A DNA stretch of 45,877 nucleotides, taken from Desulfobacca acetoxidans (GTDB lineage: Bacteria; Desulfobacterota; Desulfobaccia; Desulfobaccales; 0-14-0-80-60-11). A program made the position numbers and the translations under genes. The stretch covers positions 1-45,877 of the forward strand of contig DYLF01000010.1 in NCBI GenBank assembly GCA_020722205.1. The letters run 5' to 3'. Every line of letters begins with the position of its first letter. Position 1 is the first letter of the stretch. The notes below the pieces were generated by a model. That model worked only from the letters and a program-made list of their open reading frames with translations, did not search any database and was not told where the DNA came from. Shown in pieces: positions 21,284 through 27,005 of this stretch.

Positions 21284-22306
21284 TCAGAACTGCCTTAGAA
21301 ACCTGAGGTCGTTCTCATAGAACAAACGGATGTCGTCAATGCCGTATTTCAGCATAGCGACGCGTTCCACCCCCAAACCGAAGGCGAAGCCGGTGTAGGT
21401 TTCAGGATCGTAGCCCACCGCTTCAAAGACCGCCGGGTGCACCATGCCGGCCCCCAGAATTTCCAGCCATCCCGTGTTCTTGCAGACCCGGCAGCCTTGG
21501 CCCCGGCAGATGACGCAGGCAATATCGATTTCGGCGCTGGGCTCCGTAAACGGGAAGTAACTGGGCCGGAAACGCAAGCCCACCTCAGGTCCGAACAATT
21601 CGTGGACAAAAACGGTCAACACTCCCTTCAGGTTGGCGAAAGTTACCTGTCGGTCCACCAGCAGACCTTCCACCTGGTGAAACATGGGGGAGTGGGTCAT
21701 GTCTGAATCACGCCGATAGACCTTGCCCGGTGCGATGATGCGCACCGGCGGCCGCCGTTTCTCCATGATGCGGATTTGCATGGGAGAGGTGTGGGTTCGT
21801 AACAGCACCTGGTCATTGAAGTAAAAGGTATCCTGCATGTCCCGAGCCGGGTGGTCCGGGGGGATATTCAAGGCCTCAAAGTTGTAATAGTCCAGTTCCA
21901 CTTCTGGACCTTCCACTGTTTCAAAACCCAGATGCAGGAAGATATTGCAGATTTCTGCGGTGATGCGGTTGAGGGGATGCAACCGGCCCCGAGGGAGACG
22001 ACGCCCCGGCAGGGTAACATCAATCTCGGCGAGGGCCGCCTGACGGGAGACGGCTTCTCTCAGGGCAAAGCCGGCCTCGGTCAGAGCGGTTTCCAAGGAC
22101 TGTTTTCCCCGGTTGGCCAATTCCCCCAACTGGCGGCGATCCTCCGCCGGCAGGTCTTTCAAGCTCCGCAGAATGGCAGTCAGGGAGCCCTTGCGGCCCA
22201 ACAGGGTAACGCGTAGGCGCTCCAGCTCCTCCAGGCTCTGAGCCTGACGGATGTCGGAGAGACCCCGTTGCACAAGTTTTTCGACTTCCCTTGCTTTGGC
22301 GGTCAA
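21284..22306 (-). CDS. pheS: Phenylalanyl-tRNA synthetase alpha subunit
   Basis: PheS is the catalytic subunit of the alpha2-beta2 synthetase. The N-terminal coiled coil ([24 protein letters not shown]) is followed by the class II core: motif 2 [19 protein letters not shown], the [10 protein letters not shown] segment and motif 3 [18 protein letters not shown]. The cysteine cluster [16 protein letters not shown] is typical of bacterial PheS. No ATG is available at the 5' end. The track start is a TTG at 22306 with no clear ribosome site, and the frame is open back to the rplT stop at 22370. It is the last gene of thrS-infC-rpmI-rplT-pheS; pheT is not found before rho. Confidence 0.94.
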
Positions 22307-22369: not shown

Positions 22370-22720
22370 CTAAGCTGTCCGGGAAAGTTCGGCAATCTGG
22401 GCGAAAGCCCGGGGATCGAAGACGGCTAGGTCGGCCAGGGTTTTGCGGTCCAGGGTGATCCGGGCCTTCTTCAGGCCGCCGATGAACTTGCTGTAAGAGA
22501 GCCCCAAGGGGCGCAGCGCAGAGTTGATCCTCACAATCCACAGGCTTCGGAATTGGCGCTTGCGCACCTTGCGGTCCCGGTAAGCAAAGCACAAGGCCCT
22601 CTCCACGGCCTCCCGGGCCGAACGGTATAGACGGCGCCGGCCGCTACGGTAGCCTTTGGCCATCTTGAGAAATTTCTTGCGGCGGGCGCGTGAGGCGACA
22701 CTCTTTTTAACGCGGGTCAT
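22370..22720 (-). CDS. rplT: 50S ribosomal protein L20
   Basis: L20 is an early-assembly large-subunit protein that also represses its own operon in many bacteria. The 116-residue product shows the signature [37 protein letters not shown] and the conserved [25 protein letters not shown] precedes the ATG. It follows rpmI by 14 bases. Length is as expected (about 117 aa). Confidence 0.97.
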
Positions 22721-22734
22721 GTAAACACCTCAAC

Positions 22735-22932
22735 TCAAAAGTAAGGCAGCAGGCGCTTCAGGCCTCTGACGTCAGCGGGATGGGCAAAATCCGGGAGACG
22801 TTGATGACGCTTCCGTTTCCGGGATTTCCCCGTCAGTAAATGACTGTGACCGGGGCGCTTGCGCTTTAATTTGCCACTGCCTGAGGCCCGGAAACGCTTG
22901 GCCGCCCCCCGATGGGTCTTTAATTTGGGCAT
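22735..22932 (-). CDS. rpmI: 50S ribosomal protein L35
   Basis: The 65-residue L35 has the classical MPKLKTHRGAAKRFRASGSG start and the basic, arginine-rich body (RKRKRHQRLPDF). The start at 22932 has GAGGTTACC before it and gives the normal 65-residue length. The track ORF at 22992 adds an N-terminal stretch without family support. It lies between infC and rplT as in most bacteria. The 151-base spacer before it has no clear promoter. Confidence 0.97.
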   Translation of the reverse strand: MPKLKTHRGAAKRFRASGSGKLKRKRPGHSHLLTGKSRKRKRHQRLPDFAHPADVRGLKRLLPYF

Positions 22933-23083
22933 GGTAACCTCATAAAACCGTGAATCGGGGAAAAAATCATCCTGCGCGCTCAAAATTCCCATATGTCACG
23001 GCTGACAGGAAAAATTAAAAAGTTAAGAGAAAACCCGAATTGGTATTTATAACCAAAAAGAAGGAAACTGAAAACAGAAAACT

Positions 23084-23599
23084 TTATTTGGGGGCCACAA
23101 TAATGTACATGGTGCGGCCTTCCATCTTGGGTCCCTGCTCCACCACTCCCACATCCGCCAAGGCTTCGGCGATCTGTTGCAGGATCCGGTGACCTCTCTC
23201 CGGATAAGCCATCTCCCGGCCCCGAAAGATCATAGTGACCTTGGTCTTGTCGTTTTGTCCTAAGAAACGGCGGATATTTTTAAGTTTGAAAGCCATATCG
23301 TGTTCTTCAATCTTGGGCCGGAGTTTGACCTCTTTGATCTGGATGGTGGTCTGACGACGCCGGGCTTCTTGCTGCTTTTTACTTTGCTGATATTTAAACT
23401 TGCCGTAATCCATCACCCGGCAGACCGGGGGATTGGCTTGTGGTGCCACCTCCACCAGATCCAGGTTGGCTTCCGCGGCGTGGGCCAAGGCCGCTTTGAT
23501 GTTCATAATACCGATCTGGGCCCCATCGGCGCCGATCACCCGCACTTCCGCGGCCTTAATCTGATCGTTGATCCGGATGCGCTGCTTCTGGATGGCCAT
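23084..23599 (-). CDS. infC: Translation initiation factor IF-3
   Basis: IF-3 binds the 30S subunit and checks start codon-anticodon pairing. The 171-residue product contains the N domain (RIRINDQIKAAEVRVIG, DLVEVAPQANPPVCRVMDYGK), a lysine-rich linker, and the C domain (KEVKLRPKIEEHDMAFKLKN, VTMIFRGREMAYPERG). The annotated ATG at 23599 has AAAAGGAG only 3 bases away. The codon two triplets later is ATC, which would sit 9 bases from that site. Because infC uses AUU or other rare starts for autoregulation in several bacteria, an ATC start at 23593 is possible. It lies 25 bases downstream of thrS. Confidence 0.96.
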   Translation of the reverse strand: MAIQKQRIRINDQIKAAEVRVIGADGAQIGIMNIKAALAHAAEANLDLVEVAPQANPPVCRVMDYGKFKYQQSKKQQEARRRQTTIQIKEVKLRPKIEEHDMAFKLKNIRRFLGQNDKTKVTMIFRGREMAYPERGHRILQQIAEALADVGVVEQGPKMEGRTMYIIVAPK

Positions 23600-23624: not shown

Positions 23625-25535
23625 TTACTTGGGAACGGGAATCTGACTTTCTTGTCCCAACCGGGCTAAAAATTCATCTAACGGGATATCCCGCAATTCA
23701 GTGCCATCGCGCCGCCGAGGCGACAGGGTGCGAGCGGCCGCTTCCCGATCTCCGATAATTACCATATATGGAATTTTTTGCAGCTGCGCTTCCCTGATCT
23801 TGTAGCGCAGGGTCTCCGGCCGCAGGTCGGTTTCTACCCGGAGATTGGCGGCGATCAACCGGTCGGCCACTTCCCGGGTGTAGGCGTGCACCCGATCGGT
23901 GATGGGCAAAAGGATAACCTGCACCGGGGCCAGCCAGACCGGGAAGGCCCCGGCAAAATGCTCAATCAGTACACCCAGAAAACGTTCCAGAGAGCCCAAA
24001 ATGACCCGGTGCAGCATCACCGGACGGTGGCGTTCCCCATCCACCCCCACATAGGTGAGATCAAAACGTTCCGGCAGAGTGAAATCGCATTGGATAGTGG
24101 CGCACTGCCAGCGCCGTGCCAAGGCGTCTTTGAGTTTGATGTCGATCTTGGGGCCGTAAAAAGCCCCTTCGCCTTCACAGACGTGGTAAGGAAGGTTTTT
24201 CACCCTGAGAGCGCCCGCTAGCGCATTGGTGGCCAACTCCCAATCGGCATCGCTGCCGATGGACTTCTCGGGACGGGTGGAGAGTTCCACTTCGTAGTCA
24301 AAATCAAAAATGGCCATGACATCTGCGACAAACTCCAATACCGCGATAATCTCTCTTTCCACTTGTTCCGGCGTACAGATGATGTGGGCGTCATCTTGGG
24401 TGAACTGACGCACCCGGGTAAGGCCGTGCAGCACCCCGGAACGCTCGTGGCGCAAGACCGTGCCCAACTCGAAGAGCCGCAGCGGCAGCTCCCGGTAGCT
24501 GCGCACCCGGGATTTGTAAATCAACATATGGGCCACGCAGTTCATGGGCTTGATGCCGTAAGTCTGGCCTTCCACCTCGGTAAAATACATGTGCTCCTGA
24601 TAGTTTTCCAGGTGTCCGGAGCGCTCCCACAGGTCTTTTCTGAGCATCTGGGGCCCCATGACCATCTGATAGCCGCGTTTTAAGTGTTCCCGGCGCTCAA
24701 AATCTTCAATAATTTTACGCAGCATGGCGCCTTTGGGGTGGTAGATCACCAGGCCGGCGCCGGCCTCCTCTTCAATGCTGAACAGACCCAGTTCCCGGCC
24801 GAGGCGGCGGTGGTCCCGGCGCTTGGCCTCTTCCAGGAGCTCCAGGTGCCGGTTTAGCTCTTCAGCAGTGTAGAAGGCAGTGCCGTAAATGCGTTGCAGC
24901 ATGGGCCGCCGCTCATCGCCTCGCCAGTAGGCCCCAGAAACCCCGGTGAGTTTAAAGGCTTTCAGATACCCGGTGGAGGGCACATGGGGCCCCCGACAGA
25001 GGTCCACAAACCGTCCCTGGCGATAGAGGCTGACCTTCTCGGCAGCAATTTCTTTGAGGAGTTCGACTTTGTAAACCTCCCCCCGCTCCTCAAAGAGTTT
25101 CAGGGCCTCTGCCAGAGGCACCTCCTGGCGCCGAAACGGCAAATCCTGCGCCACCAGTTCCGCCATCTTCGCCTCAATGCGACTCAGGTCTTCCGGGGTA
25201 AAGGCCTCTTTAATGTCAAAGTCATAATAGAATCCGGATTCGATAGCTGGTCCGATGGCGATTTTCACCTGGGGGAACAAGGCCTGCACTGCCTCGGCCA
25301 TGACATGCGCGGTGCTGTGCCGCATGATTTCCAGTCCGGCAGGGTCATCCAAGCCGATGGGGGAGAGGGTGCAGTCCTGGGCCAGACGGTGCGATAAATC
25401 CACATTTACGCCGTTTACTTTGGCGGCCACCACCAGGCCCTGGGCCGATGCTCCAAGGTTCTCCAAGGCATCAGCCACTGTCAGCCCTGCCGGCATCTCC
25501 CGACAGGGGCCGCCATTTAAACATATCTTGATCAT
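23625..25535 (-). CDS. thrS: Threonyl-tRNA synthetase
   Basis: This 636-residue class II synthetase begins with the TGS domain ([20 protein letters not shown]). The editing domain contains [11 protein letters not shown] and [15 protein letters not shown]. The catalytic core has the zinc ligands in PMNCVAHM and its histidines, and motif 2 [16 protein letters not shown]. The C-terminal anticodon domain ends the protein. I start at 25535: GAAGGAG sits 2 bases before this ATG, and the preceding residues of the track ORF are encoded by the terminator hairpin. It heads the thrS-infC-rpmI-rplT-pheS operon. An intrinsic terminator with a competing hairpin sits directly before the gene, so transcription is probably attenuated. 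Confidence 0.97.
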
Positions 25536-25546
25536 AACTCCTTCAT

Positions 25547-25591
25547 AAAAAAAGCATCTTGGCAATGCCGTCACGGCATGCCCAGATGCCG
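25547..25591 (-). promoter_or_regulatory. Transcription attenuator in the thrS leader
   Basis: On the minus strand an imperfect long stem (GCATCT...AGATGC outer, ATGCCG-TGA-CGGCAT inner) is followed at once by seven T residues, and the thrS ATG comes 12 bases later. Segment CGGCAT occurs twice and ATGCCG once between them. The first CGGCAT (plus 25586-25591) can pair with ATGCCG (25574-25579) across a 6-base loop, and that would destroy the terminator. This is a terminator/antiterminator arrangement. No minus-strand gene lies upstream that the terminator could otherwise serve. Confidence 0.75.
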
Positions 25592-25686
25592 GTTACTTTT
25601 TCAGATTAAGGTGAATCTTTGGGAAAATGTTGTTTAACCTCTTAGGCTCCCAGGGAAAAACCTTTTCTTTTGCCAAATCTATTCAT

Positions 25687-25714
25687 ATTTTGCACGAATA
25701 CCCGCACTTGTCAA
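25687..25714 (-). promoter_or_regulatory. Promoter of the thrS operon
   Basis: Minus strand: TTGACA (25709-25714), 16 bases, CAAAAT (25687-25692). The predicted transcript starts near 25680 and carries a leader of about 145 bases containing the attenuator. The -35 is a perfect match; the -10 is moderate. Confidence 0.55.
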
Positions 25715-25802
25715 GAGTTTTTCCTTGGCTTGCCGCCGCTTGCAAGGTGCCCGAAATTTTTTTTGGAGTTTGACGGCGAAATTGGATATGGTGGAAGAAA
25801 TT

Positions 25803-27005
25803 ATGAGCGGGCCAGAAAGTGGGGACGGCAAAAAGCTGAGGTGGTGGTTAATTTTGGTGGGGCTGAGTGTGCTTCTCCCGGAGGCGTCGGCCTGCTGCGC
25901 CGGCCCACCAAGGCCAGAGGTGGAAAGAGTCCTTAAAACCGCTTGGCAAAGCTATTGTCAGCACTATATTTCCCCTGAGGGTCAGGTGATCATCCCTGAA
26001 CGGGGAGGGGGAACCATCTCGGAGGCCCAGGCCTATGCCCTGCTGCGGGCGGTGTGGGCCGGAGATGAGGCCACCTTTGGGCGGGTTTATGCCTGGACCC
26101 GCCGGAACCTGGCAAGAGTCGGAAAATTTGGGGACTATCTCCTGGCTTGGCAATGGGGGCGGAAAGATGACAGTTCCTGGGGGGTGGTGGATTGGAACAC
26201 TGCCAGCGATGGAGACCTGGACTACGCCCTGGCCCTGCAACTGGCCTCCCGCCGCGGCTGGCGCGCGCCGGCGGCCTTGCCCCCCTATAGGGAGGAGACT
26301 TCACGGGTCCTCAATGATATCCTGGACAAGGAGGTAGTTTCCCTTCCCACTGGGACACTGTTGCTGACGCCAGGGAACTGGCATCTCACCGTGCCGCCCT
26401 TTTTGCTCAATCCGTCCTATTTTTCCCCCGGATTTTATCCCCTCTTCAACCTTATCAAGCCCGACCCCCGCTGGGAGCGCCTGCGTGCCGACACTTACCT
26501 CCTTCTGGCCAATATCGTCCAAGGGTTAAGGCGGAATCCGTCGGTTGCCCTGTTCCCGGACTGGTGTCAAGTGGATGCTGGCGCCCAACCGGCTCCGGCG
26601 GCAGGCCGGGGGGCGCACTTCGGCTGGGAAGCGGTGCGCCTGCCATTCAGGCTCGCGCTGGATGCGCTATGGCATGGGGAACAACGGGCGATCAAGCTGC
26701 TGGCCAACACAATCGTGCCCTTTGCCCAAAAAGAATGGCAAACCCGAGGACGGCTGGCGGCGGTTTATGATGACGACGGCCAGCCTCTAGCCTCTTTCGA
26801 GAGTCCGGTCATCTATGCCGGGGTCTTGGCCGCCTTCCTTGCCGTCGGAGACCAACCCGGGGCCGACCGGATGGCCCAGAAACTTCTATCTTTTTATCAG
26901 GAACAGGGCCGACAGGCTTACTTTGTCTCTCCGGAGAACTACTACGATAACAACTGGGCTTGGCTGGGACTGGCACTATACGCCGGCTGGGTGCGGGTTT
27001 TTTAG
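25803..27005 (+). CDS. Exported glycoside hydrolase family 8 enzyme (endoglucanase-like)
   Basis: This 400-residue protein has a signal sequence (KKLRWWLILVGLSVLLPEASA followed by CC, so a lipoprotein is possible). The mature domain resembles GH8: SEAQAYALLRAVWAGDEATF with the candidate general-acid glutamate, LLAWQWG, and DWNTASDGDLDYALAL with the ASDGDLD signature. A tryptophan-rich C-terminus ends it (NNWAWLGLALYAG). GH8 enzymes hydrolyse beta-1,4-glucans or xylans, and BcsZ-type members accompany cellulose synthesis. No cellulose synthase gene is in view. The start at 25803 has GGAAG 7 bases upstream; 25788 is an alternative. The substrate cannot be decided here. Confidence 0.85.
   Translation: MSGPESGDGKKLRWWLILVGLSVLLPEASACCAGPPRPEVERVLKTAWQSYCQHYISPEGQVIIPERGGGTISEAQAYALLRAVWAGDEATFGRVYAWTRRNLARVGKFGDYLLAWQWGRKDDSSWGVVDWNTASDGDLDYALALQLASRRGWRAPAALPPYREETSRVLNDILDKEVVSLPTGTLLLTPGNWHLTVPPFLLNPSYFSPGFYPLFNLIKPDPRWERLRADTYLLLANIVQGLRRNPSVALFPDWCQVDAGAQPAPAAGRGAHFGWEAVRLPFRLALDALWHGEQRAIKLLANTIVPFAQKEWQTRGRLAAVYDDDGQPLASFESPVIYAGVLAAFLAVGDQPGADRMAQKLLSFYQEQGRQAYFVSPENYYDNNWAWLGLALYAGWVRVF

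Follow-up and report, generated by a model that had tools for sequence, protein, structure and literature searches.

Which element stands between the promoter and the start codon of thrS in Desulfobacca acetoxidans, and does it govern how much of the following translation genes is transcribed? The window, that is the whole stretch of 45,877 nucleotides that was analysed (contig DYLF01000010.1), carries the unit thrS-infC-rpmI-rplT-pheS on its minus strand, with the following parts in the direction of transcription:

25687-25714, minus strand: predicted sigma-70-type promoter, with −35 TTGACA at 25714-25709, −10 CAAAAT at 25692-25687 and the conserved spacer GGTATT
25592-25680, minus strand: transcribed leader of about 90 nt, its start placed from the promoter; poorly conserved in the window genome
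25584-25590, minus strand: terminator 5′ arm GGCATCT, in which every letter of GCAnC except the n is invariant in 27 genomes
25565-25579, minus strand: inner stem-loop of the terminator, ATGCCG-TGA-CGGCAT, private to the window genome
25553-25559, minus strand: terminator 3′ arm AGATGCT, whose final base is shared with the T-run
25547-25553, minus strand: T7 tract of the terminator, read from the sequence
25538-25543, minus strand: AAGGAG, ribosome-binding site of thrS read from the sequence, downstream of the terminator
23625-25535, minus strand: thrS, threonyl-tRNA synthetase (NCBIfam TIGR00418, 719 bits), at the head of the unit
23084-23599, minus strand: infC, downstream of thrS
22735-22992, minus strand: rpmI, downstream of thrS
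22370-22720, minus strand: rplT, downstream of thrS
21284-22306, minus strand: pheS, downstream of thrS and last in the unit

The thrS start (ATG at 25535) is consistent with the starts in relatives. Because the gene upstream is divergent, a hairpin on the minus strand can end only transcripts bound for thrS. That gene (25725-27005, plus strand) encodes a family 8 glycosyl hydrolase, which is BcsZ-like but falls under the BcsZ cut-off. At the other end, rho adjoins pheS in convergent orientation, and pheT lies on a separate contig of the same genome (C143, L121), apart from pheS.

An earlier note on this DNA had described a TTGACA promoter and, downstream of it on the same strand, a stem-loop with seven T residues just before the thrS ATG, and both are present. 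The promoter, with its −35 hexamer at 25714-25709, matches 10 of the 12 consensus positions and is conserved in relatives, both in place and in letters; wherever a genome contains the pattern TTGACN6-9GGTATTTATG, it is essentially confined to thrS. The stem-loop (25590-25553) reads GGCATCT-G-GGCATGCCG-TGA-CGGCATTGCC-A-AGATGCT on the minus strand, is followed by TTTTTTT at 25553-25547, and has a folding energy of about −23 kcal/mol (−21.8 to −23.7), with a gap of 11 bases between the T-run and the ATG. This stable hairpin and its T-run lie between promoter and start codon on the same strand, which is the arrangement of a 5′ attenuator. No other hairpin in the window combines an energy below −20 kcal/mol with a T7 tail. 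Shuffled windows contain about two hairpins each with −19 kcal/mol or better and a T-rich tail, so that the energy alone is not decisive, and it is conservation that decides.

We collected 119 genomes of relatives, of which 27, from the window's own family and a sister family and with sequence upstream of thrS, were usable. In each of the 27, thrS is preceded by leader and terminator, and the TTGACA-type promoter with its conserved spacer is found wherever the usable sequence extends far enough. The arms GCATC/GATGC are nearly invariant, and when the 27 hairpins are aligned the pairs 3-43, 4-42, 5-41 and 7-39 never vary; these are the G-C, C-G, A-U and C-G pairs of GCAnC/GnTGC. The inner part of the hairpin varies freely, and the letters of the stem are therefore kept beyond what mere pairing requires. 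The terminator proposed in the thrS leader is thus strongly supported by conservation of both position and sequence. The leaders of 13 relatives were combined into a covariance model (R1), which scores 32.4 bits at 25654-25544, its sole good match in the window; in each genome its one strong site is the one at thrS, and the few other matches are all weak. Because of this single site no larger gene set is apparently under the leader, and we dropped the idea of a multi-gene regulon. The leader 5′ of the terminator is unconserved within the window's own subclade, and no sensor is visible there. A second hairpin, CACGG...CCGTG (P2), preceded by purine-rich GGAGA..GAGGAG, occurs in leaders L003, L006, L007, L010-L014 and L016; it is present in several genera (about 10 of 13 relatives), shows little covariation, and is absent from the window's genus. 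The thrS genes of G009:C156 (L031) and G010:C252 (L017) have in-frame stops (five TGA, one TAG), which probably stem from frameshifts or from errors of assembly.

In most of the order the ATG follows the T-run after 11-22 nt, and in three loci (L006, L014 and L020) the terminator lies 129-172 nt from the ATG, so that masking of the ribosome-binding site would not be its mode of action. In L006 and L014 the intervening DNA consists of inserts of 130-160 nt with short repeats. These spacings also bear on the idea that the leader forms an independent small RNA ending at the terminator, with thrS transcribed from another promoter. A conserved promoter and terminator do bound an RNA of about 130 nt, and the three long-spaced loci count in favour of this idea, but the usual 11-22 nt leave no room for one, the element is strictly linked to thrS in every genome, and the leader body is unconserved in some genera; we regard a small RNA as very unlikely.

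For an RNA-only switch, the earlier note had proposed a CGGCAT/ATGCCG hairpin excluding the terminator. The segments do exist, as CGGCAT at 25591-25586, ATGCCG at 25579-25574 and CGGCAT at 25570-25565, and as long as the 3′ arm has not been transcribed the alternative hairpin can fold. However, ATGCCG and the second CGGCAT are the inner helix of the terminator itself, and the alternative hairpin, at −7.0 kcal/mol against −21.8 to −23.7 for the terminator, loses once the 3′ arm is made. ATGCCG lies between the arms in no relative, and no mutually exclusive hairpin is conserved among relatives. An upstream partner of the terminator 5′ arm was likewise sought across genera, and none was found at a consistent position (p = 0.06). 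Of the pairings suggested for the thrS leader, then, the terminator stem recurs in relatives (27 of 27) and the antiterminator in none of them, which makes a switch of this kind extremely improbable.

The two textbook sensors, a T-box and a threonine-rich leader peptide, had been reported as missing, and we also find neither. No Rfam family (T-box, riboswitch or ribosomal leader) is present in the window or its relatives; the best match to the T-box core AGGGTGGNACCGCG reaches 7-9 of 13 positions, with no covariance-model match. The T-box leader of thrS in Firmicutes likewise attenuates transcription of thrS, but the element described here has neither the T-box motif nor the specifier arrangement. 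No run of Thr codons was found in short open reading frames (ORFs) before the terminator, and the few ORFs with several Thr codons are not common to relatives. Leader-peptide attenuators of the thr, his and trp type also place a terminator shortly before the first gene, and some relatives of the window may have a short ORF as well; the thrS element differs from them in having no Thr codon run and no conserved antiterminator.

This short ORF, GTG/TTG/ATG-AAY...stop, is seen in leaders L003, L006, L007, L010-L023, L031 and L032; 8-12 (or 18-19) nt separate its stop from the terminator, and its peptide is not conserved past Met-Asn. It could allow ribosome-controlled attenuation, in which a ribosome paused at the end of an ORF of the form GTG/TTG-AAY...ATG-TAA or similar, ending about 8-12 nt before the terminator, blocks the 5′ arm. 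About two thirds of the order's genomes have such an ORF with its stop at 8-12 (or 18-19) nt from GCATC, and the differences in ORF length are multiples of three. Against this, the GTG/TTG starts have no well-spaced ribosome-binding site, the ORF has no Thr codons, changes show no clear excess at third codon positions, and the stop is too distant from the stem in genus g3 and in L016. The ORF is also missing in the window, L002, L004, genus g5 and L024/L025. We consider this mechanism unlikely.

Outside the order, about 21 of 40 Desulfobacterota families have GGCATC/GATGCC terminator arms ahead of thrS, a count corrected by hand by removing three spurious regular-expression matches and adding two missed families, both of which have a shortened ThrRS. 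In a second set of 77 loci, which overlaps the family set and includes Geobacter, Geomonas, Smithella, Syntrophus and Desulfuromonas, a strict test found a GGCATC-type terminator before thrS in 55, with about 0.2 expected by chance as estimated from flanking and coding DNA. Judged from these sequences, the terminator element at thrS is very probably real and much wider than the window. A tRNA-Val gene lies upstream of thrS in 59 of the 77 loci, and in the other Desulfobacterota families it is directly upstream, its anticodon nearly always GAC, in most cases with its own TTGACA promoter. Outside the window's order the terminator usually stands between tRNA-Val(GAC) and thrS; in the window's order the tRNA-Val(GAC) gene is elsewhere in the genome, and the terminator is still before thrS. 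We infer that the hairpin was the terminator of the tRNA-Val(GAC)/thrS junction and was kept in this order when the tRNA came to lie elsewhere. Its retention after the tRNA left argues that the terminator serves thrS, and the order thereby separates a terminator of the tRNA from an attenuator of thrS. As a separate matter, the leader was compared with tRNA-Val as a possible degenerate copy of that gene; the alignment was not above that of shuffled sequences and no tRNA match was obtained, so this was rejected.

At the level of sequence and comparison, then, promoter, leader, terminator, gene order and conserved stem letters can be recognised, together with the lack of a conserved antiterminator, and on this basis the hairpin very probably acts as a genuine brake on the thrS operon. 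We think it somewhat more probable than not that it is a premature intrinsic terminator, an attenuator, in the leader of thrS-infC-rpmI-rplT-pheS. Transcripts would start at the TTGACA promoter, part of them would terminate in the T7 tract, near 25547-25550, and the remainder would read through into thrS, so that the hairpin would set the expression level of the whole unit. Termination would be partial and adjustable, most likely through a factor acting in trans on the sequence-conserved stem or on its transcription complex, of the kind proposed for the rimP-leader; we prefer this to an RNA-only switch. The main rival is a passive throttle, in which a constitutive partial terminator derived from the tRNA-Val/thrS junction gives a fixed, low read-through and senses nothing. 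In relatives it is this hairpin that terminates the tRNA-Val transcript, and neither a conserved sensor nor an antiterminator is found, both of which suit a throttle; it does not explain why the hairpin is kept with invariant stem letters across the order after the tRNA left, when particular letters would be needless. We take it to be possible, at well below even chances. Several points also weigh against the attenuator itself: a passive terminator would give the same conservation of the hairpin, common descent could account for part of the GGCATC signal, the hairpin may serve only the tRNA in relatives that have it there, and the leader, unconserved in the window's own subclade, reveals no sensor.

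More specifically, and tentatively, a trans-acting protein (ThrRS, IF3, L20 or NusA) might read the GGCAUC/GAUGCC stem and control read-through into the thrS operon in Desulfobacterota and geobacters, a proposal that we hold as rather doubtful. If true, it would control which share of the tRNA-Val transcript, or of the bare leader where the tRNA is gone, enters the operon. The stem letters, kept across some 20 families and always at thrS, offer a precise site for tests.

In the literature searched we found no published account of thrS regulation in deltaproteobacteria, and no papers there on thrS attenuation or on the tRNA-Val-thrS linkage. In Escherichia coli, ThrRS autoregulates translation through the thrS operator. 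Operator and thrS element share a thrS leader with hairpins and the same downstream genes, whereas the element described here is a terminator with a T-run, sometimes far from the start codon. For a pair of arms resembling the tRNA-Thr anticodon arm, as in the operator type, the hairpin loops were viewed by eye only; NGU triplets have no fixed position in them and are not clearly more frequent than expected by chance. Of the systems described so far, the rimP-leader comes nearest, by analogy: its terminator stem is conserved in sequence and has no antiterminator, a combination that was read as a hint of protein recognition (Naville and Gautheret 2010, PMC2965389). Both are premature intrinsic terminators before an operon of translation genes, with conserved stem letters, no visible antiterminator, a variable distance to the start codon and suspected protein recognition. 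The thrS element is not the rimP-leader itself, since its stem is GGCATC..GATGCC before thrS and not GGGc..gCCC before rimP-nusA-infB, and it belongs to a different operon and, in the majority of relatives, has a link to tRNA-Val(GAC).

Some further features of the tRNA-Val loci were observed. Among L034-L065 and L126-L199, the tRNA-Val(GAC) gene is directly 5′ of thrS in most Desulfobacterota and geobacter families. In L035, L040, L065, L133 and L134, five to seven T follow right after tRNA-Val, there is no separate hairpin, and the thrS ATG comes 15-45 nt past the T-run; in these loci the tRNA-Val itself may act as the terminator stem. In L034-L064 the tRNA-Val acceptor strands (AGGCA.../...TGCCT) have the same outer letters as the terminator arms (AGGCATC/GATGCCT), and the two could mispair. 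Finally, in L051-L055 homology to ThrRS begins at about residue 67 and tRNA-Val occupies the position expected to encode the TGS domain, so that these synthetases appear to be without the N-terminal TGS domain.
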